35,189 bases of DNA from an uncultured bacterium (GCA_905235605.1 CAJOMF010000017.1:1-35189), one strand, 5' to 3'; shown: positions 545-13,950, numbered from the stretch's first letter. Numbers and translations: made by a program. Notes: generated from the letters alone by a model not told the origin.

Positions 545-795
545 ATGAATTTAAAAAAGACTGTGACAATAGCGTTGATCTTATCTTCGATATTGCTTTG
601 CTCATGTAAAAAGAATGTTAAACCAAAAACGTCAGATACAACAGCTCCTTCCGCCGCTACGCTGGCGACTTTTCCGATACAGCCGAAGGCGACGAACAGT
701 TCGAGATCAACGACAGCCGCAGCCTCGAAAAAATGTATGAAGACATGTCGGAAGAGGGGATGCAGCCGGTTCTCAACGATTATATTTATCTGTGA
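545..795 (+). pseudogene. Small lipoprotein, apparently frameshifted at the A5 run 625-629
   Basis: Lipobox-like signal MNLKKTVTIALILSSILLCSCKK. The frame entered by adding one A gives ...KPKNVRYNSSFRRYAGDFSDTAEGDEQFEINDSRSLEKMYEDMSEEGMQPVLNDYIYL* with stop at 793-795. The annotated frame instead continues into xseB. Confidence 0.6.
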
Positions 796-817
796 AATAA
801 GCGGACACGGAGAAAAA

Positions 818-1051
818 ATGGAAAAGAAAAATAATTTAGCCTCAAAGATGAAAAGACTTGAGGAAATCGTCGAAAAACTCAACGAAAATCCTGAAATCGA
901 GGATGCAGTCAAGCTTTACGAAGAAGGTGTAAAACTCTCGGTTTCGATAAAAACCTATCTCGAAGACGCCCAGACAAAAATCAGAGTTCTCACCGAGGAA
1001 GGTGAGAAAACGGTCGATGCCGACAAACTTGGTAGGAAAGATTTCGAATGA
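818..1051 (+). CDS. xseB: Exodeoxyribonuclease VII small subunit
   Basis: 77-aa protein MEKKNNLASKMKRLEEIVEKLNENPEIEDAVKLYEEGVKLS..., typical XseB pattern. ATG at 818 after a purine-rich stretch; 4-nt overlap with the next gene. Confidence 0.8.
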   Translation: MEKKNNLASKMKRLEEIVEKLNENPEIEDAVKLYEEGVKLSVSIKTYLEDAQTKIRVLTEEGEKTVDADKLGRKDFE

Positions 1052-1653
1052 TATCCTACGGCTTCATAAAAGAGCGCGACGCAAAGGCTGAAATTGCACA
1101 GATCGAGGCTGAACTCAAGCAGAAGTTCGGTTTAAGCACGCTCTGTCGGCCTCATCAGATCCACAGTGATACGATTTTTGTTGACGGCGACGGCGAGGGT
1201 GACGGCATAATCATCACAAAACCATCGATCGCCCTCATCAGAACAGCCGACTGCATCCCTGTCCTCCTTTTTGACAGAACTGCAAATATCGCAGGAGTTT
1301 TCCACAGCGGCTGGCGCGGGACCGAGCAGAAAATCGTCTCGAAAGGGGCGAAAATGATGGCTGAAATGGGCTGCAAAAACATTGAGGCTATTATTTTCCC
1401 TGGAATCGGACTCTGCTGCTTCGAAATAGGGGATGAACTTCGCGAAAGATTTGAAAATGCAGAAATTCCAATGAGTTATGTTAACGGAAAACTTCACGCC
1501 GATTTAAAAACAGCGATAAAAAACGAGCTTGTAAAAACCGGGGTTGCGGAAATCACCGACAATTCGCAGTGCACTTTCTGCGGAGAAGGCTACTTCTCAT
1601 ACCGACGTGACAAAACCGAAAAACGGCACGCCACTTTTGCTGTTGTATCTTAA
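1048..1653 (+). CDS. pgeF: Peptidoglycan editing factor / laccase-domain (YfiH, DUF152) protein
   Basis: Motifs HQIHSD, TADCIPVLLFD, HSGWRGTEQKIV, FPGIGLCCFEIG, CTFC...YFSYRRD. Confidence 0.88.
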   Translation: MISYGFIKERDAKAEIAQIEAELKQKFGLSTLCRPHQIHSDTIFVDGDGEGDGIIITKPSIALIRTADCIPVLLFDRTANIAGVFHSGWRGTEQKIVSKGAKMMAEMGCKNIEAIIFPGIGLCCFEIGDELRERFENAEIPMSYVNGKLHADLKTAIKNELVKTGVAEITDNSQCTFCGEGYFSYRRDKTEKRHATFAVVS

Positions 1654-1674
1654 AATTCTTTAAAAAATTTTTCG

Positions 1675-1710
1675 CTTGGGCATTATACGCCCAACCTCTC
1701 GGGTATAATT
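1675..1710 (+). promoter_or_regulatory. Palindrome + TATAAT element, copy 1 (TTGGGC-N7-GCCCAA ... TATAAT)
   Basis: TTGGGC 1676-1681, GCCCAA 1689-1694, TATAAT 1704-1709; 31 nt before the WYL gene ATG. Confidence 0.6.
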
Positions 1711-1740
1711 TGCCCGTTTTTGTTGTTTTAGGAGGAAAAA

Positions 1741-2709
1741 ATGTCAAATCTTGAAAGGATCGTTTACATCAATCACATGATCAAAACGAAAGGTTTCGTC
1801 ACAAGAAAGGAGGTCTCGGACCGTTTTGAAGTCCACATTGACACAATCAAGCGCGACATCGAATATATGCGCGATTTCCTTTCTGCGCCGATAAAATACA
1901 GGCAGAGTGTCGGCGGATATGTCTATGAAACGCCGTTCGACATGCTTTTCGATTCGCTTGAAGACGCTGTGCTTTACTACATTTTCGTAAAACGGATCAG
2001 CGAGTCGCTCAAACTCGACGGTCTGCCCTACGTTCCGGTGATTTCAGACGAGATCCTGAAGAATATTTCGGGCTACATTCCGCCCGATTTCGACGAAATA
2101 ATGGATCATATTTCCTACGATTCATCCGATATCGACCTGATGGACATGAAAGATTTCAGGAATATCCTCGGTTCTTTTATGACGAAACGGTGTGTTTCTA
2201 TAAGATATCTGAATGCCGACGGAGAGGAGAGCGAAAGGGTCATCGAGCCGCTGAAACTTATGAATTACCTCGGAAAGTGGTATGTCATCGCCTTCTGCCG
2301 CAAAAAAAATGCTTTGCGCGTTTTTCTTCTTTCGCGCTTCCTTTCAAGCGAATTGAGCAGCGAAAAATTCGAATATCCAGTCACGAAGCGTGAACTCGAC
2401 GGATATATCGACGGCTCTTTCGGAATGTTCAAGTCGGAAACCTCCTCAACTGCCGTGATCCGCATTTTCGAACCGGCCTGCTACTACGTGAGAAACCAGA
2501 TCTGGCACAAAAACCAGAAAGTCAGAGAGTGCACTATTGACGGCAGGAAATGCCTCGAGATAACACTTCCGGTCGGCGACCGGGACAAGGAGATCCTGGC
2601 AAGAGTCCTCTCGTATTCGCCCGACAGCGAGATCGTTTCTCCGCCGGCTCTGCGCGAAAAGTGGCTTGAAAGGATCAAAACGCTCTATAAAAAGTTCTGC
2701 AAGAAATAG
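1741..2709 (+). CDS. WYL-domain (YafY-type) HTH transcriptional regulator
   Basis: N-terminal wHTH (TRKEVSDRFEVHIDTIKRDIEYMRDFLSAPIKY) and WYL-like region (SIRYLNADGEESERVIEPLKLMNYLGKWYVIAFCRKKNALRVFLLSRF). RBS ggagg. Confidence 0.85.
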   Translation: MSNLERIVYINHMIKTKGFVTRKEVSDRFEVHIDTIKRDIEYMRDFLSAPIKYRQSVGGYVYETPFDMLFDSLEDAVLYYIFVKRISESLKLDGLPYVPVISDEILKNISGYIPPDFDEIMDHISYDSSDIDLMDMKDFRNILGSFMTKRCVSIRYLNADGEESERVIEPLKLMNYLGKWYVIAFCRKKNALRVFLLSRFLSSELSSEKFEYPVTKRELDGYIDGSFGMFKSETSSTAVIRIFEPACYYVRNQIWHKNQKVRECTIDGRKCLEITLPVGDRDKEILARVLSYSPDSEIVSPPALREKWLERIKTLYKKFCKK

Positions 2710-2718
2710 GGGGCTTCA

Positions 2719-3300
2719 ATGACTGAAAGCAAAATCCCGACAAATGAAGAGATCATCGCGATGATCCCGTCAAAGGCGGTACGCGAATATTTAGTGAAAA
2801 TAAACTGGCAGTTTGAAGAGTACGAGCGCGATATCCTGCGCCGCTACATCAAGCCGAAGAATAAAGACGAGGCTGACAGCGTCTATGCCGAACAAAACTA
2901 TGTCACGCTGCCTCATCCTTTCAGAAAAGGCGACATCGTCACCGTCTGCGACAAAAGATTCAAAAACAGAAAGCCTGAAACCGGAATAATGTGGTCTCCC
3001 AAAGATGACGAGGAGTTCTGGAATTTCGACAAACGGGCAAAAACCGACCTTAAAGGTTTCGTCGATTTCACCGATGTTGCGACAACTGTCGATTTTCTCT
3101 CGCCCGAAGACGGCTTTTTCAGGCACGGACATCCGAACCCTCTCTGGATCGAATACGCAGAACTTGACGAAGATTCAGCCGAAGCACGCTTTCTCAGAAG
3201 CGCGGTAAAACTCCAGAACGGAAACGGCTCTCTCGAAGAAACCGACGAGCTCCGCAGTGAATATGTGGCAAGCAGGAAGAAAAAAATCTCAAAAAAATAA
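2719..3300 (+). CDS. Hypothetical protein in probable operon with the WYL regulator
   Basis: 193-aa ORF starting 9 nt after the WYL stop; no family recognised. Confidence 0.65.
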   Translation: MTESKIPTNEEIIAMIPSKAVREYLVKINWQFEEYERDILRRYIKPKNKDEADSVYAEQNYVTLPHPFRKGDIVTVCDKRFKNRKPETGIMWSPKDDEEFWNFDKRAKTDLKGFVDFTDVATTVDFLSPEDGFFRHGHPNPLWIEYAELDEDSAEARFLRSAVKLQNGNGSLEETDELRSEYVASRKKKISKK

Positions 3301-3447: not shown

Positions 3448-4083
3448 ATGAGTATTTTTGGTTCAGGTTTCGGTGGTTTCGGCAGAACAAAAAGTCCGGT
3501 AGAGCTTATTGCTCCGACAATTATTGCAAAATGTCCCATAATTCCAAAAAAATCCCGCAAAAAGAGCTGTGATTTCATCCGCACGGTCTCTGATTCGGGA
3601 CTTAAAAAAGGCGATGTAATCGGAGTCCACAGATCGGCGGTTTACGACCATTACGGCATATACACCGGACGCGGTAAGGTTATCCATTTTTCCAATGAAG
3701 GGAGCGATTTCGGCGGCGATATCCGCGTCCGCAGAGCAACTCTCTCGCAGTTCAAAAACGGAGCATCGAATGTTTTTGTCGTAGATTTCGAAGCTTACCG
3801 CGATTATGTTGAAAATCCTGGTTTGTTGGATTTGTTGGAAGAAGGAATCGTGGGAATCGCATTAAGAAAATTGTTCGGCAACGAACTCACCCTCTATTCG
3901 CCGGAAGAGACTGTCGAAAGAGCCAAAAGCCAGCTCGGAGAAGGCGACTACAACCTTGTGTTCAACAACTGCGAACATTTTGCCGTCTGGTGCAAAACAG
4001 GAGTCAAAGAATCAAGTCAGGTTCAGAGATTTCTTGAGGCGGTTGTCGGAACCATTCAGAAGTCGCAAACTCACAGAGTCTGA
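3448..4083 (+). CDS. LRAT-like / NC-domain protein (permuted NlpC/P60-type papain fold)
   Basis: KKGDVIGVHRSAVYDHYGIYTGRGKVIHF (H box) and YNLVFNNCEHFAVWCKTG (NC box), spaced as in LRAT/HRASLS-like proteins. RBS aggagg. Confidence 0.7.
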   Translation: MSIFGSGFGGFGRTKSPVELIAPTIIAKCPIIPKKSRKKSCDFIRTVSDSGLKKGDVIGVHRSAVYDHYGIYTGRGKVIHFSNEGSDFGGDIRVRRATLSQFKNGASNVFVVDFEAYRDYVENPGLLDLLEEGIVGIALRKLFGNELTLYSPEETVERAKSQLGEGDYNLVFNNCEHFAVWCKTGVKESSQVQRFLEAVVGTIQKSQTHRV

Positions 4084-4096
4084 TTTTTTATTATCT

Positions 4097-4270
4097 CCTT
4101 GGGCACTGTATGCCCATTCTCTCGTGTAAAATCGTGCTGTTTGCTTATGACGACAACAAACTAATTTTATAAAAGGCAACCACTTCACAAAACAGCGAAC
4201 TGAATTGTGAAGTTGTGTGAAGTTTTTGTGAAGTAATGAGTGAAGTTGAATGAAGTTTACTTCACTTTTT
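4097..4270. repeat. 174-bp direct repeat, copy A (matches 6060-6233)
   Basis: By-eye alignment shows one mismatch (c4196 vs t6159). Includes the palindrome element (4098-4133) and the TGAAGT array (4182-4264). Confidence 0.9.
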
Positions 4271-4273
4271 ACA

Positions 4274-4445
4274 ATGCCGTTGCACACAGAAATTATTTTA
4301 TTTCAGGCTCTCAGATAGAAATAAATATGTTTAAAGACCGCCTTGAAATAACCTCTCCCGGAGCTTTGCTCGGAGTGCGTGAAATCGAGAAAGAAACAAG
4401 AATTTCTTCAATAATCCCGCGCCGCAGAAACGAAGTTATATGCTC
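4274..4445 (+). pseudogene. Internal fragment of the AlbA_2/Schlafen-type gene (matches 7151-7322)
   Basis: Encodes NAVAHRNYFISGSQIEINMFKDRLEITSPGALLGVREIEKETRISSIIPRRRNEVIC, as in the intact gene. Joined directly to the copy-A upstream repeat, so about 0.9 kb is missing. Confidence 0.85.
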
Positions 4446-4549
4446 TCCCCGGGTTAAGTCAACTTCTTTCTGTAAATTCCGAGTCTTATTTTCACTAAAC
4501 AACTCCGAAAATCTTAAAGCCAGATTACCGAATGGCAATCTTTCAAAAC

Positions 4550-5902
4550 TTAAAGCAGCGGAGTCATGTAAAGCGGAAGGTATAAAACGCCGTCCTTTTC
4601 CTGCAGGTCCGATGTGTGAATGACACAAGGATGAGATATCTGCTCCGCATATTTGTGAGAGAATTTTTCAAGGGATGAAGTGGTGTATTTTGTGGTAGAT
4701 TTCACTTCTATCGGCGATATATTGTGCCTGTTTGTGAGATCAGGCTTTTGTATGAGAAAATCTATCTCCATCCGCTCGGAAGATTCTGTTTTGGAGTAGG
4801 AAGAGTAGAAGTATAGTTTATGCCCCGATGCGCACAGCATTTGAGCGACAATATTTTCAACCAGCATTCCTTTGTTGATCTCCAGTTTGTCAAGCAGCAG
4901 TCTGCTGTATAGTTTGTCAGCAGCGATGATTTTTTCGTCAAAAGTGTGGGAAATAAGCAGACCTGTGTCGGCCATGTAGCATTTGAGCGCGAGTTTGTCC
5001 ATTCTCATTTTCAGTCCGACAGTCGGTTCTGTGGCTGCATAGCAGATGTTGACGATTTTAGCGTCCGAAAGCCAGAAAAACGAGCTTTCATAGTTTCGGT
5101 ATCTGGCTGTTTCGGATATGTCGGCAAGTTTGAAACGTTTTTCGTGACGCTGCAACTCAGCCGGAATCCAGTCGAAAATACTTTTAACCTTGCTTTCGTA
5201 GCCGACAGCGTATTTTTCAATATCAGCACGGTAGAGCGCAAGAATATCGCGTTTTACGATGTCGGTTTCTTCAAAATTCCTTGTTTCAGTAAATGCAAGC
5301 ACAGCCTGCGGCATACCTCCGACAATCATATACTGCCGGAAAAGATCCATTGTTTTGCGGTGCACCGGTCCGAGCGGCATTTTGTGTTCAAAACAGTATT
5401 TTATGAACGGCATAGTCGTTTCGTCTCCAAAAGCCCAGAGAAACTCCTCGAAATCCATGGGATACATCGGGATTCTGTGCTCTTCCGAAGGAATGACAAT
5501 GTCTTTTACATTACGGTTTATGCTGACAAGCGACCCTGTTTCCAGATAATCGTATCTCCTGTCTGCAACGAGATATTTGATCGCTGCTCTGGCCCGCGGG
5601 TAAAGCTGCACCTCATCAAAAATGATGATTGAATCCCGTTCATAAAGTTTTACGCCGTAATAAGCCGAAAGCTGCATGAAAAACATATCAAGATTCTGGA
5701 GATAATTGTCGAAAATCTCAAAAAGACGTTTGTCTGCGTGGTTGAAATCCACAAGAATATAAGATTTATATTCGTTTTTGGCGAACTCTTCGGCGATGTA
5801 GCTTTTGCCGATACGCCTTGCTCCGTCAATCATTACCGCAGTTTTTCCCTGCCGCTCTTGTTTCCAGCGAACCAACTCATTGTAAATTTTACGTTTCATC
5901 AC
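4550..5902 (-). CDS. AAA_14 / DUF4143-family ATPase
   Basis: Walker-A-like GARRIGKSYIAEEFA, Walker B SIIIFDEVQLYPRARAAIKYL, ETGSLVS sensor, C-terminal DUF4143-like MLVENIVAQML...EIDFLIQKP...PIEVKSTTKYTTSSLEKF. Confidence 0.85.
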   Translation of the reverse strand: MMKRKIYNELVRWKQERQGKTAVMIDGARRIGKSYIAEEFAKNEYKSYILVDFNHADKRLFEIFDNYLQNLDMFFMQLSAYYGVKLYERDSIIIFDEVQLYPRARAAIKYLVADRRYDYLETGSLVSINRNVKDIVIPSEEHRIPMYPMDFEEFLWAFGDETTMPFIKYCFEHKMPLGPVHRKTMDLFRQYMIVGGMPQAVLAFTETRNFEETDIVKRDILALYRADIEKYAVGYESKVKSIFDWIPAELQRHEKRFKLADISETARYRNYESSFFWLSDAKIVNICYAATEPTVGLKMRMDKLALKCYMADTGLLISHTFDEKIIAADKLYSRLLLDKLEINKGMLVENIVAQMLCASGHKLYFYSSYSKTESSERMEIDFLIQKPDLTNRHNISPIEVKSTTKYTTSSLEKFSHKYAEQISHPCVIHTSDLQEKDGVLYLPLYMTPLL

Positions 5903-5910
5903 TGATCCTC

Positions 5911-5992
5911 ACGATTCCAAACGATTGAATTTGCGATTTCAGCACGATTCCAAGCGATTTTTGTCGGCTAAAACGCACGATTCCAAACGATT
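5911..5992. repeat. Three 33-bp-spaced copies of ACGATTCCAARCGATT upstream of the AAA_14 gene
   Basis: Copies at 5911-5926, 5944-5959 and 5977-5992 (exact 33-bp period); nested CGATT units at 5912, 5922, 5934, 5945, 5955, 5978, 5988. Confidence 0.85.
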
Positions 5993-6018
5993 TTTGCTTA
6001 AAATATCAAAAATGTCAA
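5990..6018 (-). promoter_or_regulatory. Putative minus-strand promoter for the AAA_14 gene
   Basis: Minus strand TTGACA (6018-6013), 17-nt spacer, weak -10 AAAAAT (5995-5990) abutting CGATT repeat copy 3. Confidence 0.35.
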
Positions 6019-6059
6019 TATCGACCCGATAAAAATCTCAAAAAATAAAAAATTTTATC

Positions 6060-6233
6060 CCTTGGGCACTGTATGCCCATTCTCTCGTGTAAAATCGTGC
6101 TGTTTGCTTATGACGACAACAAACTAATTTTATAAAAGGCAACCACTTCACAAAACAGTGAACTGAATTGTGAAGTTGTGTGAAGTTTTTGTGAAGTAAT
6201 GAGTGAAGTTGAATGAAGTTTACTTCACTTTTT
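6060..6233. repeat. 174-bp direct repeat, copy B (matches 4097-4270), upstream of the intact AlbA_2 gene
   Basis: Near-identical to copy A; contains a palindrome element (TTGGGC 6062, TAAAAT 6090) and the TGAAGT array. Confidence 0.9.
6145..6227. promoter_or_regulatory. Phased TGAAGT repeat array bracketed by inverted ACTTCA copies
   Basis: TGAAGT at 6171, 6181, 6192, 6204, 6214 (steps 10, 11, 12, 10); ACTTCA at 6145-6150 and 6222-6227. Confidence 0.75.
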
Positions 6234-6235
6234 GC

Positions 6236-6264
6236 TTGATTCTTCTGTTTTTGCGACTATAATA
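6236..6264 (+). promoter_or_regulatory. Putative sigma70-type promoter of the AlbA_2 gene
   Basis: TTGATT, about 16-nt spacer, TATAAT, immediately downstream of the TGAAGT array. Confidence 0.5.
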
Positions 6265-6291
6265 CCTATCGGTAATTTTGTTGGAGGCAGA

Positions 6292-7734
6292 ATGTTTATT
6301 TATGAATTGATTCCAGGACTCAATATCGAAGACACCAGAAACGAGTTCAAAGGGATTATTGAAGAAGGTGTTTCCGAGTCTGGAAAGAGTAAGGAAATCG
6401 GCTGGTTGAAGACGATTGCGGCTTTTGCAAACACCGAAGGCGGACACCTTTTTATCGGTGTTGAAAACAAAACACACAAGGTCGTTGCGCTGGATCACAA
6501 TACTGCCGACAAAACGGTTTTGATGATTCACCGCCAGATCAAACAGCGTCTTGAACCTGCTGTGGCTTACAAAATAAACGCTGTTCCGTGCGGCGGAAGA
6601 TTCGTGCTCGAAGTTGTTGTCGAGCCGTCAAAAGTGCTTCCGGTTACGCTGCACGAAGAAGGTCTTCTTGGGATTTATGTGCGGAATTTCGGGAATACAG
6701 TTCTTGCGACTTCCGAGCAGATCCGTGATCTGATTCTGATGAGTGACAGCAATCCGTTCGATCAGCCGTTTACTGATGTCGTTTTCAGACGTGAGGATTT
6801 CAATGACCTTTTTAAGGTTTATAAAGAAAAAACTGATTCGGAACTTACGGAAAAGGCTTTGATTTCAATAGGTTTTATGGATAGAAGAATGCTTTCACGC
6901 GGCGCGCTGCTTTTTAAAGACAATTCGTCCGATGAAAGAACCAAAATCACGGCAACGCTCTGGCCTGGAACAACAAAAGGGAGTTCTCTTATTCTGGCAA
7001 GCGAAGAATTTAGCGGAAATATCCTCAAAAGCATTGTTTTTGCTACGAAATTCATACAAAACCATTCGATAAACGGTTATCGGAAGGAAGATACAGGGCG
7101 GGTCGATTATTTTTCATATCCGATCCGTTCGATAACCGAAGGTGTTGTAAATGCCGTTGCACACAGAAATTATTTCATTTCAGGCTCTCAGATAGAAATA
7201 AATATGTTTAAAGACCGCCTTGAAATAACTTCTCCCGGAGCTTTGCTCGGAGTGCGTGAAATCGAGAAAGAAACGCGTATTTCTTCAATAATCCCGCGCC
7301 GCAGGAACGAAGTTATATGCTCGGTTCTTGAATTTTGCAGATATATGGAGTCGAAAGGTTCCGGTTTTGACAAGATTGAACACGATTACGCCGGAAAAGG
7401 GGATGAATACAAGCCCTACATCTCTTCTTCGGCCTCTTCTTTCACGCTGGTTCTGCCGAATCTCACTTTCAGCGGTATCGTGGATGAAAACAGTGTTCCC
7501 GAAGTCTATGCCGATGCAATCCTTGAAGGGAAAAACGACTTGAAAATATTAGCTTTTTGTTTTAACGGAAGTCGAACTGTTGCAGAAATTGCAGAACATG
7601 TAGGTGTTCACCCTTCGACTTATTTCAGAAAAAACGTCTTGGATAATCTTGTCGAAAAAGGCTATCTCTTTGAAGATTTGTCATCTAAAAAGTCGCGTTA
7701 CCTGACAAATACGAAAAAAGTATTCGCAAAGTGA
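6292..7734 (+). CDS. Schlafen-type AlbA_2 domain protein with ATPase-like C-terminal region and HTH (RNA-binding/transcriptional regulator-like)
   Basis: ESGKSKEIGWLKTIAAFANTEGGHLFIGVENKTHKVVAL (AlbA_2); VVNAVAHRNYFISGSQIEINMFKDRLEITSPG (HATPase_c_4-like); C-terminal wHTH (GSRTVAEIAEHVGVHPSTYFRKNVLDNLVEKGYL). ATG 6292 after GGAGG. Confidence 0.85.
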   Translation: MFIYELIPGLNIEDTRNEFKGIIEEGVSESGKSKEIGWLKTIAAFANTEGGHLFIGVENKTHKVVALDHNTADKTVLMIHRQIKQRLEPAVAYKINAVPCGGRFVLEVVVEPSKVLPVTLHEEGLLGIYVRNFGNTVLATSEQIRDLILMSDSNPFDQPFTDVVFRREDFNDLFKVYKEKTDSELTEKALISIGFMDRRMLSRGALLFKDNSSDERTKITATLWPGTTKGSSLILASEEFSGNILKSIVFATKFIQNHSINGYRKEDTGRVDYFSYPIRSITEGVVNAVAHRNYFISGSQIEINMFKDRLEITSPGALLGVREIEKETRISSIIPRRRNEVICSVLEFCRYMESKGSGFDKIEHDYAGKGDEYKPYISSSASSFTLVLPNLTFSGIVDENSVPEVYADAILEGKNDLKILAFCFNGSRTVAEIAEHVGVHPSTYFRKNVLDNLVEKGYLFEDLSSKKSRYLTNTKKVFAK

Positions 7735-7774
7735 CTTCACAATAGTCAAGCTGAAAACTTCTGAAATTCCCCGC

Positions 7775-7809
7775 CTTGGGCACTGTATGCCCACCCAAAT
7801 ATGATAAAA
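7775..7809 (+). promoter_or_regulatory. Palindrome element, degenerate copy (TTGGGCACTGTATGCCCA)
   Basis: TTGGGC 7776-7781; the -10-like position (7804) reads ataaaa. Confidence 0.45.
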
Positions 7810-7834
7810 AGTTTTGTTTTTATTGCTGATTTTA

Positions 7835-7862
7835 TTGTTTTGTTCATGGGTTTGGGTATAAT
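7835..7862 (+). promoter_or_regulatory. Putative promoter of the five-gene operon
   Basis: TTGTTT (7835-7840), 16-nt spacer, TATAAT (7857-7862); a second TATAAT at 7883-7888. Confidence 0.45.
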
Positions 7863-7905
7863 GCCGCCGGTTTTTGTAGATTTATAATGTAGACAGCATG
7901 ATTAT

Positions 7906-7970
7906 AGTCAGAAGTCAGAAGTCAGAAGTCAGAAGTCAGAAGTCAGAAGTCAGAAGTCAGAAGTCAGAAG
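7906..7970. repeat. Heptamer microsatellite (AGTCAGA)x about 9.3
   Basis: Uninterrupted agtcaga units from 7906 to 7970. Confidence 0.95.
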
Positions 7971-8100
7971 ATTATACTGATTTTTCTCGAAAAGTCAAGA
8001 AAAATCTTAATAAAATCAAATGTTTTTCAAAATTTTTCATTGATTTCACCTTGATTGAAAAAAAGAACACAGGCAACACTGTTGTGGAGATGTATCGAAT

Positions 8101-9474
8101 ATGACAGTTAAGTATGAACTGGAACGAAAAGTAGAAGAATACCAAGGATATTTGATTGCAGGATACGATGTTATCACTGTAAAGGAAACAAGGGAAGAGT
8201 GTGATAAATACGACTATATAATAGCGGCTTCTTGCGGAGTTATTGCAGGATTGGTTGACGTTTTCTTTGTCGGAGCTCCAGGTAAAAGCGTATTGGAGGG
8301 TGCTGTCAATGGAAGCGTTGACTCATTTGAAAAAAAGGCGGCACAGGTTTTTTACGAATTTGATCAACGTTCAGTTAAAAACAGAAACCGTCCTGAAACA
8401 TTAGATCAGTGTATCAATTATTTGGAACAGGCATTTCCTGTTCCTTACGATGCAAGATATGCAAAAGACTTGAAAAAAGCAGGTCAAAATACGCTGAAGG
8501 GGATGAATCCTAAAAACCACCATCTTTTATCTTTATCACATTCCCCGGATATTTTCGGCTTGATTTTTTCCATTATTGACCAGTTTACAGATGCGGGATC
8601 ATATATCGATAACGGGAAACTTATTCGTTTGGAACCTAAAAAGAGCAGTGGAAGTGTTCCATATTTACAAGGAAGTAATCCTGTTAGTAAATTTTTCTGC
8701 GGCTTTGTGAATTGGATCGGGCATATTATATCTGATTTAGCTGGCTCAAGTTCTGTCAGAAGAAAAGGCGGCAAAAATTCCGGTGTCTCAATTCCTTTTT
8801 ATGAACTTTTTCTTGGTTGTAATTTCGGAAATATAGATGGAAATACTATCGCCGAAATAGCCACAAAGGCTTTTGAAGAGGGATATAATCTGAACTGGGG
8901 ATTGACGATGGCAATTCCTGTTGTTCTAAACGATCTCTTCATAAGACTGATATGGTCCCTGAAAAAGCACTTTTATGCAGGAAAAGATTGGAAACAGTGT
9001 ATTCCGACAAACGACCATGACGATTTAAGAGTTATGCTTTTGGTGGGGCAGGCGGCAATGTGTCTGGTTGACGGATTGGATGCTTTTATAAGATCCGGAG
9101 GTAATGCATTGCTGTTTGTCAGCAGGATCAATTTGATAGCCTGGGGCAAATTGGCTTACATGGCAGTAAAGGAACTCGTTATAAGATACAAAAACCTTAT
9201 AGACAGTATTTCCCAACCTTACAAGTTGATAAATGAAGCCATGAGCGAATATTTGGAAAAACTGGAAAGCATAGATTTAGAAGCATTCAAGCATGAAGCT
9301 GAAGCTTTTGAATGTTTTTGCAAAAAAATGCTCGCGGCCAGCAATGAAGAGAGCCTTAATCAAGTTTTGATGGCATGGATGAAAGAATTGAAGTTCGAAC
9401 TTCCTTGGGAGGGTGATTTTAATACTTTCATGTCAAATTCCAAAAATTGTCTGGAATTTGGGAAAAGAAAATGA
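8101..9474 (+). CDS. Large protein of unknown function, first gene of the putative five-gene operon
   Basis: 457 aa with membrane-helix-like segments (YIIAASCGVIAGLVDVFFVGAP; LTMAIPVVLNDLFIRLIWSLKKHFY) and striking motifs KNHHLLSLSHSPDIFGL, WIGHIISDLAGSSSVRRKGGKNSGVSIPFYELF, DLRVMLLVGQAAMCLVDGLDAFIRSGGNALLF. Confidence 0.8.
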   Translation: MTVKYELERKVEEYQGYLIAGYDVITVKETREECDKYDYIIAASCGVIAGLVDVFFVGAPGKSVLEGAVNGSVDSFEKKAAQVFYEFDQRSVKNRNRPETLDQCINYLEQAFPVPYDARYAKDLKKAGQNTLKGMNPKNHHLLSLSHSPDIFGLIFSIIDQFTDAGSYIDNGKLIRLEPKKSSGSVPYLQGSNPVSKFFCGFVNWIGHIISDLAGSSSVRRKGGKNSGVSIPFYELFLGCNFGNIDGNTIAEIATKAFEEGYNLNWGLTMAIPVVLNDLFIRLIWSLKKHFYAGKDWKQCIPTNDHDDLRVMLLVGQAAMCLVDGLDAFIRSGGNALLFVSRINLIAWGKLAYMAVKELVIRYKNLIDSISQPYKLINEAMSEYLEKLESIDLEAFKHEAEAFECFCKKMLAASNEESLNQVLMAWMKELKFELPWEGDFNTFMSNSKNCLEFGKRK

Positions 9475-9734
9475 GCTTTAAGTGTGATAAATGCGGAGAA
9501 TGTTGCAGAAATTTAGGTCTGTCTGACTTATATGGTGACCTTGATTCCGGAAATGGAGTATGCAGGTACTTAATCGGAAATTTGTGCAGCATTTATGAAA
9601 ACAGACCGCTTAAATGCAGGGTTGAGGAGAGTTATTGTTTTTTTGAGGAGGTAATGTCAAAAGAGGAGTATTATGCAAAAAATTATGAAGTTTGTGCCGG
9701 ACTTAAACAAAAGGCAAAAAGAAAAAACAAGTGA
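9471..9734 (+). CDS. YkgJ-like cysteine-cluster (putative Zn/Fe-chelating) protein
   Basis: CDKCGECCRNLGL...CRYLIGNLCSIYENRPLKCR. ATGA overlap with the upstream stop (9471-9474). Confidence 0.75.
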   Translation: MSFKCDKCGECCRNLGLSDLYGDLDSGNGVCRYLIGNLCSIYENRPLKCRVEESYCFFEEVMSKEEYYAKNYEVCAGLKQKAKRKNK

Positions 9735-9760
9735 TTTATTGTCATTTTAAGGAGGAAAAA

Positions 9761-10783
9761 ATGCCAATTCCTATTTTTTTAGCAATTGGAGCAGGAATTG
9801 CTGCGGCAGTTGGTGTCGGAGCAGGAATTAACGGGGCTGTTAAAATGAGCGAAGCCAACGACACGATTAAATCTGCCGAGACAAAACAAAACAACGCTTT
9901 GAGAAAATTAAAAAATCATCAGGAGTCTTCATTTAAACTTATGGATGATTTAGGAAAGCAGGAACTGTTGATTTTAAAGAGTTTCGAGAAATTCTCGGAT
10001 ACAATCGAAAGAATTCAAGGTCGTCCTAAATTTCACGATTTCCAAAAAGGCAGTATAACGATTCCCAAATTTGAGCCCGGAGATCTTAAAGATGTTTCTG
10101 TCGGTGCAGGAATACTGCTTGGCGGTGTCGGCGGGGCTGCAGTCGGAACTCTTGGCGGATTTGCCGCGGCCGGTGCAACAACGGCAGCTGTTACAGCTCT
10201 CGGAACTGCTTCTACCGGAACCGCGATAGCTTCTTTAAGCGGAGCGGCTGCAACAAATGCGACATTGGCTGCATTGGGCGGCGGAGCGATTGCTGCCGGC
10301 GGCGGAGGAATCGCCCTTGGAACGACTTTGTTGGGAGCTGCAACGTTAGGTGTCGGTCTGCTTGTAGGAGGAGTTATTTTCAGTATAACAGGGAGTTCTT
10401 TATCTGACAAGGCGGATGAAGCATACCGTCAGGCTTGCAGCACAGAAGAAAAAGTTGATGCTATCTGTCAATATCTTTCAAAACTGAAAAAGTACGCTGG
10501 AGATTTCAAAAAGACACTCTCTGCTGTTGAATGTTCCTACAAAGAACACATGGAAAAACTGGAGCAGATAGTTATAGGACAGAACAAAGTGCAGTGGAAA
10601 GATTTTTCTGACGAAGAGCAGTTGATTACGCAAAATACTGTTTTGTTGGTTGCGTTGCTTTATGAGATGTGCACAGTTAAACTCGTTCTGAAAAACCGTA
10701 AGAATGATGATGAAAGTGAAGTCAATGTAAATGGTATTTTGGATGCAAATGCCAAGGCTGATAAATTATTGGAAGAAATTTAA
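9761..10783 (+). CDS. Glycine/alanine-rich membrane protein with coiled-coil-like flanks
   Basis: ATG 9761 after GGAGG. N-terminal hydrophobic helix, charged helical region, then a long GG/AAA-rich stretch (DVSVGAGILLGGVGGAAVGTLGGFAAAGATTAAVTALG...GLLVGGVIFSITG) and a C-terminal helical domain. Confidence 0.75.
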   Translation: MPIPIFLAIGAGIAAAVGVGAGINGAVKMSEANDTIKSAETKQNNALRKLKNHQESSFKLMDDLGKQELLILKSFEKFSDTIERIQGRPKFHDFQKGSITIPKFEPGDLKDVSVGAGILLGGVGGAAVGTLGGFAAAGATTAAVTALGTASTGTAIASLSGAAATNATLAALGGGAIAAGGGGIALGTTLLGAATLGVGLLVGGVIFSITGSSLSDKADEAYRQACSTEEKVDAICQYLSKLKKYAGDFKKTLSAVECSYKEHMEKLEQIVIGQNKVQWKDFSDEEQLITQNTVLLVALLYEMCTVKLVLKNRKNDDESEVNVNGILDANAKADKLLEEI

Positions 10784-10800
10784 TTGAATGGAGAAGAAAT

Positions 10801-11199
10801 ATGTTTTTAAATCAGTTGAGTTATCAAGAAAGAAAAATGTTCCTTAATTTAAGTGTTCACGTCGCGAAGGCGGATAATGTGCTTGAAGCTAAAGAAAAAG
10901 AGCTGATCAGCGCATATTGCAATGAAATGCAGCTTCCCGCTGTCGAGTTATTTGAAGTTGTACCGATGGAGACAATAACAGATTATTTTGCTCAGGCAGA
11001 TATGCACACAAAGAAGATTGTGCTCCTGGAGATATTGGGACTTGCCTATGTTGACGGTGCTTATTGCGAGGCAGAAAAGAATTTGATAAAGGGATTTGTT
11101 GAAAAAATTGAAATACCGGAAGAAGATTACCAGAAATTAAACGAACTGATTTCAAAGTATTACCTGATGTGTAAGGATTTGTTTGAGGCTGTTCAATAA
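10801..11199 (+). CDS. TerB-like (tellurite-resistance TerB/DjlA-type) protein
   Basis: All-helical 132 aa with SVHVAKADNVLEAKEKELISAYCNEM and LGLAYVDGAYCEAEKNLIKGFVEKIEIPEEDYQKL, typical TerB-type repeated acidic motifs. Confidence 0.6.
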   Translation: MFLNQLSYQERKMFLNLSVHVAKADNVLEAKEKELISAYCNEMQLPAVELFEVVPMETITDYFAQADMHTKKIVLLEILGLAYVDGAYCEAEKNLIKGFVEKIEIPEEDYQKLNELISKYYLMCKDLFEAVQ

Positions 11200-11270
11200 T
11201 TTATTTCCAGGGTTGAATTTTTGTGTTTTTTCATCTGATTTAGTGATGATTGGGGGTGAAAACCTGAAAA

Positions 11271-11972
11271 ATGTTTGAAAAAATCGGCAAATACATCATT
11301 GATCACGATGAAAAATTAACATTCAATATTGTCTATATCGCACTTTCCATAGTTTTGAGTGTGGTTTTCAACCTCTATTGGCTGATTGTCATTGTAACGC
11401 TTCACCTGTTCCTTGACATTTATGTATCAATGCACAGCGGAAAAATTTTCGGCAAGGCTGTTTTGTCCGGATTATGGAAACTGAAACTCGATTTTGTCCT
11501 TATTCTTTTTTCAATAGTTGTCTTTATATATCTTGAGGCAATGATCGGAGCTCTGGCAGGGCAGGGTGCCAAAGGTTTAAAAGGGGCGCAAGGAGTTAAA
11601 GGAGCTGCCAGTTCTTCAAAAATCGGAACAGGCGGCAAAATTATGAAAATCGGCAGCCAGACAGGTAAAGCGTTTAAAACCAGTGAAAAAATTGCTTTAG
11701 GACTGAAAGCACTGGGACCTAAAACGTTGGCAACAATAAGAACAGTTCTAAATTTAACGGATGATATTCCTAAATTCCTGATTATTTTAAGGAGTAATGG
11801 AAAGAAAGATGAAAAAGCAATGGAAAATGAGTCTTTTAAGATCACATGGGGAGATATAATCGTTCTTGGTTTTGGAGTTCTGTTTCTCGGAATGATATTG
11901 CTGTTTCCTTTCATATTTGATCTTTCTTTTTCGGAAAGCATGGATTTTATTCTGAAAAGCCTCGAATCTTGA
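11271..11972 (+). CDS. Polytopic membrane protein of unknown function, last gene of the putative operon
   Basis: Hydrophobic segments at both ends and a central Gly/Lys/Ala-rich linker (GALAGQGAKGLKGAQGVKGAASSSKIGTGGKIMKIG). Confidence 0.65.
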   Translation: MFEKIGKYIIDHDEKLTFNIVYIALSIVLSVVFNLYWLIVIVTLHLFLDIYVSMHSGKIFGKAVLSGLWKLKLDFVLILFSIVVFIYLEAMIGALAGQGAKGLKGAQGVKGAASSSKIGTGGKIMKIGSQTGKAFKTSEKIALGLKALGPKTLATIRTVLNLTDDIPKFLIILRSNGKKDEKAMENESFKITWGDIIVLGFGVLFLGMILLFPFIFDLSFSESMDFILKSLES

Positions 11973-12327: not shown

Positions 12328-12481
12328 TTATCCTTTTGCACCTTTTAAAGAGTTGTGAAGATTTTTTTCAAAATAATCTCTGTCTTAAAATATCATATAT
12401 TTAAATATTTTTACTTTTATTTTTGTAAAATTTTATTATAATGCTGTAAGAAATTTGTTGTTTGTAAAAATGTTGTGAGAC

Positions 12482-13465
12482 ATGAATGAAATTGACAATA
12501 GATTCGATGAAATAGCCAGAATAATCGAAGAAGCCCGCAACACAGCTTATCGCAGGGTGAATGAAGCTTTGATTATAATGTATCGCAGGATAGGGCGTTT
12601 TCTTTCCGAAAAATCAAAAGATGCAAACTACGGTGACGGCTATGTTGATTCTCTTTCAGAATATATTCAAAAACATTTCCCTGGCATTAAAGGTTTTAAC
12701 CGACGCGGTCTCTATCGAATGAAGCAGTTTTATGAGATTTATGCAGAAAATGAAAAAGTGTCAGCACTGCTGACACAATTGAGTTGGACCAATCATCTGC
12801 TTATTATGTCCGGCAGCAAAAGTGATGAAGAACGGGAATTTTATATGCGCCTCGCGGCAAAAGAACATTATAGTTCAAGAGAGCTTGAGCGGCAGATGGA
12901 CAGCGGATATTATGAGCGTTATATGCTTTCTCAAGGCAATTTGCTGCCTGATAAACTGCACTCTCAGGAAAATCCGTTCCTCGACTCGTATGTGGTGGAA
13001 TTTCTTAATTTGCCTAAAACATTTCAGGAAAACGACTTCCGTAAAGCTTTGGTGAAGGGAATGCGCAATTTCATTCTCGAATTGGGCAAGGACTTTTCTT
13101 TTGTCGGAGAGGAATATCCGATACAAGTCGGCGGCGATGATTTTCGGATTGATTTGCTGTTTTTTCATCGCACTCTGCACTGTCTTGTGGCAATAGAACT
13201 GAAAGAGGGAAAATTTAAACCGGAATATGTTTCAAAAATGGATTTTTATTTGGAAGGATTGGACAGACAAGTCAGAAAACCTGACGAAAATCCAAGTGTC
13301 GGACTTCTGCTTTGTGCGTCAAAAAATGACGAAGTGGTCGAATATGCCATGAGCCGCACACTCTCTCCGATGATGATAGCTCAGTATCAGTTGCAGCTAC
13401 CGGATAAGAATATCCTGCGCAGAAAATTGCAGGAATTGGCAAATTTACCGAAAATCGAAGAATAA
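12482..13465 (+). CDS. DUF1016 / YhcG-family PD-(D/E)XK nuclease-like protein
   Basis: N-terminal DUF1016 pattern (GFNRRGLYRMKQFYEIYA...LLTQLSWTNHLLIM) and C-terminal FRIDLLFFHRTLHCLVAIELKEGKFKPEYVSKMDFYLEGLD. Confidence 0.88.
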   Translation: MNEIDNRFDEIARIIEEARNTAYRRVNEALIIMYRRIGRFLSEKSKDANYGDGYVDSLSEYIQKHFPGIKGFNRRGLYRMKQFYEIYAENEKVSALLTQLSWTNHLLIMSGSKSDEEREFYMRLAAKEHYSSRELERQMDSGYYERYMLSQGNLLPDKLHSQENPFLDSYVVEFLNLPKTFQENDFRKALVKGMRNFILELGKDFSFVGEEYPIQVGGDDFRIDLLFFHRTLHCLVAIELKEGKFKPEYVSKMDFYLEGLDRQVRKPDENPSVGLLLCASKNDEVVEYAMSRTLSPMMIAQYQLQLPDKNILRRKLQELANLPKIEE

Positions 13466-13484
13466 TTTTTTCATATTTTTTGCG

Positions 13485-13520
13485 CTTGGACATTATATGC
13501 CCAACCATGCGTTTATAATC
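13485..13520 (+). promoter_or_regulatory. Palindrome + TATAAT element, copy 6
   Basis: TTGGAC 13486-13491, TATAAT 13514-13519, 32 nt before the ATG at 13552; similarity to copy 2 extends through GCGTTTATAATCAYTYYCGTMAACTTTTTT. Confidence 0.6.
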
Positions 13521-13551
13521 ATTCTCGTCAACTTTTTTTATGGAGGAAATT

Positions 13552-13950
13552 ATGACAGAAAGTTTATTTGAAGGCATTGCAGAAGCAATGGAAGGTGTTA
13601 CTGAAACTATGAATGTCGAGGCAGAAGATGAAAACAAAATCATTGAAAGTTCCGGAATTGATGAATCAGAGGAAGATTCTGCCGGTTCCGAATGCATTTG
13701 CGACGACTCCGCTGAAAACGAAGACGGAGAAACGGAAGATTACGGCGAAGAAACCTGCGGTGAAGAAAGCAGCGGCGGAGCAGAAGAGCCGGGTTTAATC
13801 GAGAGCATTTTCGGTTTCATCGACACGATGAGAACCGACGAGGTGTCGCGTGAGGTCGCTTTCGAAGAATTCGGGGAAATGTGCCGTGACAGCATCAACG
13901 AACTCTGCGACATCCTTAAAGAATTTCCGAAGATTTTCGAGAAAGAGTAG
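13552..13950 (+). CDS. Highly acidic hypothetical protein
   Basis: ATG 13552 after GGAGG; Glu/Asp-rich N-terminal half, helical C-terminus. Confidence 0.65.
   Translation: MTESLFEGIAEAMEGVTETMNVEAEDENKIIESSGIDESEEDSAGSECICDDSAENEDGETEDYGEETCGEESSGGAEEPGLIESIFGFIDTMRTDEVSREVAFEEFGEMCRDSINELCDILKEFPKIFEKE

Follow-up and report, generated by a model that had tools for sequence, protein, structure and literature searches.

Anti-phage protection by Bunzi, a system composed of BnzA and BnzB, was reportedly demonstrated by Millman et al. in 2022. Bunzi is counted among the defence systems of unknown mechanism (PMC12926258), and a review table assigns the TerB family PF05099 to it (PMC10952713); these reviews regard both Bunzi and TerB systems as protective against phage. 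Two candidate systems in PADLOC, PDC-M09 (M09A-M09B) and PDC-M40 (M40A-M40B), are also relevant to the locus described here. BnzB, M09A and M40B are each represented in PADLOC, but a unit that combines such proteins with a YkgJ-type protein is not. No paper describing a YkgJ-containing unit was found in the literature searched, the scope of which excluded most subscription journals.

The window is a 35,189-nucleotide stretch of DNA from an uncultured bacterium (GCA_905235605.1, CAJOMF010000017.1:1-35189). Five genes lie in succession on its plus strand: gene A (8101-9474, 457 aa), gene B (9471-9734, 87 aa), gene C (9761-10783, 340 aa), gene D (10801-11199, 132 aa) and gene E (11271-11972, 233 aa). 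A and B overlap through an ATGA sequence at 9471-9474, and gaps of 26, 17 and 71 nt separate B from C, C from D, and D from E, respectively. Strand, sizes and junctions were as described in an initial annotation of this DNA. That annotation had also called B a YkgJ-like Cys-cluster protein and D a TerB-like protein, and both assignments were borne out by Pfam, in which B passed the PF03692 (YkgJ/CxxCxxCC) cut-off (25.3 bits vs 23, E-value of 2.5e-05) and D passed the PF05099 (TerB) cut-off (39.4 bits vs 24.4, E-value of 8.2e-10). The Pfam scan assigned no significant family to A, C or E, and nothing exceeded the NCBIfam cut-offs for the cluster genes.

The window genome has a close relative in its genus, recorded as 'uncultured Spirochaetales bacterium RUG11946' and referred to here as the sister genome, which contains A, B, C and D in identical order. 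As B and D were recognised by Pfam, A and C were recognised by PADLOC, and the A-D order was retained in the sister genome, we conclude that these are real genes rather than chance ORFs. The DNA from 8098 to 11199 was common to both genomes with 85% identity, and homology ended at the TerB stop codon. In the same DNA comparison gene E had no counterpart in the sister genome and the segment from 4117 to 8097 was absent; other blocks common to both genomes were 676-3282, about 3542-4116 and 12358-13949. BnzB was carried by 2 of the 15 genomes of the genus, i.e. the window genome and its sister. Because the shared DNA stops after D and just these two genomes carry BnzB, A-D constitute an accessory unit from which E is excluded. 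The five-gene operon of the initial annotation therefore held for A-D, which are co-inherited, but not for E, and the conserved unit consists of four genes extending from 8101 to 11199.

Gene A had been described as an unknown 457-aa protein, a description that has to be replaced. It matched the PADLOC BnzB model PDLC03834 with an E-value of 3.1e-115 across profile positions 153-482 of 504, and thus contains the core of a component of the described Bunzi system. An HMM constructed from five canonical BnzB proteins only covered residues 32-367 of gene A (8194-9201, plus strand) with an E-value of 1.2e-107. Alignment of this core revealed the conserved motifs NHHxxSLxHxPD and NWxGHxxSD, and conserved His and Asp residues are present, including H140, H141, H147 and D150. 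The N-terminal ~150 residues of canonical BnzB are absent from gene A. No fold was recognised for the BnzB core, and PDB sequence searches with A and C retrieved no meaningful relatives. AlphaFold2 models of A and C were of low confidence (pLDDT of 46 and 42), and Foldseek searches with these models returned nothing usable; for these reasons a catalytic fold was not assigned.

The proteins encoded by B, C and D have distinct features. Eight Cys residues of B were invariant in an alignment of 14 homologues from related loci and may form a metal or Fe-S site. The YkgJ proteins that were tested did not match any PADLOC model. Gene C matched the PADLOC PDC-M09A model PDLC04407 (1.6e-28). Alignment and hydropathy analysis identified a hydrophobic N-terminal segment, as well as helices on both sides of a Gly/Ala-rich core. 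This glycine-zipper-like core (about residues 113-210; 10097-10390, plus strand) contains 27 Gly and 25 Ala per 100 residues, follows the pattern GTASTGTAIxxLSGAAATNAxLAxLGGGxIAxGGGG, and was the most conserved block of the family in alignments. The composition of C, with its Gly/Ala core and hydrophobic segments, suggests a membrane-inserted scaffold or pore. Homologues of C are often publicly annotated as 'hypothetical protein' or 'chemotaxis protein'. In a PDB sequence search, gene D gave a weak match to the TerB protein 2ou3 (0.083). A TerB homologue adjoins C in G016, a genome from the family to which the window genome belongs, and on a Vibrio plasmid. Since TerB was present in a minority of loci only, its role is optional, and D is a candidate stress adaptor that the unit could do without.

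The A+B+C trio was adjacent on one strand in the window, in the sister genome and in at least 12 further loci, and three gene orders were found (A-B-C, A-C-B and C-A-B). Homologues of C led to loci in which C and YkgJ accompany a different large protein, PDC-M40B. The A position is occupied by an M40B-type protein in the order A-B-C on a Clostridioides (C. difficile) plasmid, in the order C-A-B in Allochromatium and Cupriavidus and on Raoultella (Raoultella/Klebsiella), Photobacterium, Acetobacter and Duffyella plasmids, and in the order A-C-B or A-B-C in five genomes of another phylum (that of G256). A Vibrio echinoideorum plasmid carries all four genes together with a WYL regulator, in the order WYL, TerB, C, A and YkgJ. 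In pairwise comparisons window D was matched by the TerB protein of this plasmid (5e-10), window C by its C protein (1e-18) and window B by its YkgJ protein (2e-15). The A proteins of plasmid and window gave no pairwise match; the core of the plasmid protein is of the PDC-M40B type with an HNH-like motif, and the resemblance to window gene A is found in its last ~90 residues. In G016 the TerB-C pair is followed by a third type of large protein. Thus, the neighbourhood conservation check proposed in the initial annotation gave a positive outcome, as the trio recurs in distant bacteria and all four genes are found on the Vibrio plasmid. The M40B core of the relatives follows the pattern LDHxxSAxExHDDxGRVL...N, and this motif, together with a weak Pfam match (0.047), resembles an HNH nuclease. 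M40B-type A proteins (L069-L072, L053-L058) are often publicly annotated as 'cobalamin adenosyltransferase' or 'ATPase'. BnzB cores were also found in other company: in canonical BnzA-BnzB pairs of Vibrio, Lactococcus and three IMG/VR contigs, in BnzB and M09A pairs without other partners (on Lactobacillus-group plasmids, in a human-gut phage and on one IMG/VR contig), and on IncHI2 plasmids, where BnzB adjoins a small membrane protein. We refer to C and B, with TerB as an optional member, as the chassis.

An early combined HMM suggested that M40B and BnzB were homologous over the whole protein. As this profile mixed both protein types, its E-values for gene A were circular and do not constitute evidence for whole-protein homology, and the BnzB-type and M40B-type profiles were therefore separated. 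Whole-protein homology was rejected on the basis of hhalign, in which the C-terminal end alone aligned between the two types, and of the split HMMs, which left only the tail in common. The tail HMM was built from 13 M40B-type proteins, using their C-terminal 105 residues; it included no BnzB-type sequence and was run on 3,222 ORFs plus gene A. It matched residues 363-445 of gene A (9187-9435, plus strand) with an E-value of 5.8e-11. Outside the M40B proteins, the A proteins of the window and sister genomes were the only ones to match, with no other unrelated ORF among the 3,222 at E<=1. An HMM of the M40B core did not match gene A. The BnzB and tail homologies meet at residues 363-367; because the tail match begins where BnzB homology ends, we conclude that gene A encodes a two-part protein, a BnzB core followed by a chassis-specific tail. 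This form was found in the window genome and its one sister only. According to the split HMMs the tail is lacking from canonical BnzB paired with BnzA, and it is likewise lacking from an M40B-core protein of a Pseudomonas plasmid, the gene of which is not accompanied by C or YkgJ. Since the presence of the tail follows the presence of the chassis, we infer that the tail is a docking part linking A to the chassis. The last ~30 residues of the Lactobacillus-type BnzB proteins paired with M09A (L008, L018, L020 and L024) weakly resemble the C-terminus of PDC-M09B (0.0004 and weaker), a likeness that is suggestive only of a possible second case of tail matching.

The unit resembles Bunzi through the BnzB core at residues 32-367, but it differs in its tail, in the loss of the BnzB N-terminal region, in its YkgJ, M09A and TerB partners, and in BnzA, for which no match was obtained in genes A-E at E<=1 with the PADLOC model. 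Because BnzA is missing, the unit is not canonical Bunzi as that system is defined, even though A-D may work like it. One could still view the locus as a Bunzi system with accessory genes in which C and D together replace BnzA. In its favour, gene A has a BnzB core, BnzA proteins match PDC-M09A weakly (0.0014), the small protein next to one IncHI2 BnzB matches BnzA 301-414 (1.6e-06), and TerB is tabulated for Bunzi (PMC10952713). We consider this explanation unlikely, as hhalign of BnzA with C or D yielded no significant match, the BnzA model found nothing, and gene A is without the N-terminal region of BnzB and ends in a foreign tail. A TerB domain inside BnzA was likewise unsupported by hhalign. 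The initial annotation had also asked whether the first gene is always found in a characterised, unrelated system. This is not the case, because Bunzi is a relative of the unit by virtue of BnzB, and the tail and the partners of gene A differ.

Other known or candidate systems share single elements with the unit. Gene C is the M09A protein of PDC-M09, but M09B is missing; gene A did not match the M09B models at E<=1, and C matched M09B weakly (0.003). The M40B-type proteins of PDC-M40 that occur in the relatives have the tail of gene A and its B and C partners, but their resemblance to gene A is confined to the tail, the M40B core giving no match. M40A had no match in the window genome (G000), the sister genome (G007), G256 or three plasmid records. 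Shango also has a TerB domain, but its helicase and ATPase are absent here, and the likeness to Dionysus (2025) is the presence of a TerB domain (PMC10250203, PMC12926258). Homologues of C matched LeoBC of Eleos weakly in PADLOC (down to 7e-07), probably through the glycine-rich membrane segment, and the dynamin-like LeoA was not found among the genes scanned.

The distribution and surroundings of the relatives bear on their function. In a collection of complete E. coli genomes (n = 5,426), the Raoultella trio used as query matched 379, always on the chromosome, and in 368 (about 7%) the trio was covered at >=80%. Four of these E. coli loci were opened for context. Three of them lay next to a tRNA gene (tRNA-Sec or tRNA-Phe) and an integrase, and one of these three also had a DNA methyltransferase and helicases nearby. 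The fourth was in an island with transposases, with a restriction S subunit further upstream. A gene for a helix-turn-helix regulator was directly upstream of the trio in all four, and WYL domains were present in both regulators that were scanned. BrxR-family WYL regulators are found together with phage defence systems (PMC9122601). In the window the nearest WYL gene is at 1741-2709 and none adjoins A-D; the region also encodes YhcG nuclease, AAA/DUF4143, SLFN/AlbA-RecG and E1-like proteins. A phage-borne trio was found neither in viral contigs nor by DNA search of a phage collection. The YkgJ gene of the E. coli trio was present even where it had escaped annotation, as at three of the four opened loci.

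The frequent occurrence on plasmids and tRNA-integrated islands is also what one would expect of a toxin-antitoxin or plasmid/island maintenance module, in which a toxin A is held by C/B and freed when expression falls. A toxin-like membrane protein, nuclease-like cores and swappable cores, which are common in toxin systems, fit this explanation. It nevertheless appears improbable given that the unit comprises three or four proteins, including large constant partners, that the WYL regulators are of the defence-associated type, and that there is homology to Bunzi, for which anti-phage activity has been reported. Less probable still is an operon for metal, redox or envelope stress, unrelated to phage, with TerB and YkgJ as the metal or stress proteins. 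Although the TerB and 8-Cys YkgJ domains and a homologue in metal-resistant Cupriavidus are consistent with such a role, no other Ter genes (TerC, TerD or TerZ type, as in tellurite resistance operons) were detected among the neighbours scanned, and the accessory, mobile distribution, the BnzB core and the PDC families argue against it.

On balance we favour the explanation that A-D form a mobile, Bunzi-related module of the anti-phage type, in which a constant chassis is combined with a swappable effector. We are highly confident of the anatomy of the unit, and homology and context make a defence role likely. The initial annotation's view of a module of Cys-cluster, TerB and membrane-type proteins agrees with their co-inheritance in a defence-like setting. 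Our model of how the module works is tentative. The chassis would comprise the glycine-zipper membrane protein C, the 8-Cys putative metal-binding YkgJ protein B and, optionally, the TerB protein D, and it would carry the exchangeable effector A through the conserved C-terminal tail, the effector core being of the BnzB type in the window genome and of the HNH-like PDC-M40B type in most relatives. C would be at or inserted into the membrane, holding A by its tail, and B and D would either restrain the complex in an inactive state or signal infection or metal/redox stress. Infection would then lead to release or activation of A, and C may permeabilise the membrane such that phage growth is stopped, probably at the cell's cost. 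There is about an even chance that these loci represent a widespread and as yet undescribed defence family whose hallmarks are a glycine-zipper membrane protein and an 8-Cys YkgJ protein, with TerB as an optional member, and which swaps whole effector cores while conserving the docking tail. One form of this family would be that found in the E. coli genomes, and the window would be a natural capture of a Bunzi effector. A BnzB core on another partner set tells the portable effector from the chassis, and the presence of the chassis in hundreds of complete E. coli chromosomes makes it testable in standard laboratory strains. The public annotations of A ('cobalamin adenosyltransferase') and C can also be corrected.

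Several additional features of the surrounding DNA were observed. The segment from 7906 to 7970, ~130 bp upstream of gene A, contains 9.3 perfect tandem copies of AGTCAGA and could be a slippage site or a regulatory element. The AAA/DUF4143 gene (4550-5902) is flanked on both sides by an identical 43-nt repeat (two copies, 23-nt unit), at 4205-4247 and 6168-6210; this gene and both repeats belong to the block that the sister genome lacks. A stand-alone ThiF/E1-like protein encoded at 14316-14951 matches PADLOC E1-E2 defence models. The YhcG/DUF1016 PD-(D/E)XK nuclease gene at 12482-13465 has 96% DNA identity with the sister genome. In the sister genome (L002) a gene for a short acidic protein occurs twice around the YhcG gene (11177-11614 and 13198-13593), and one of these copies sits at the place of window gene E.
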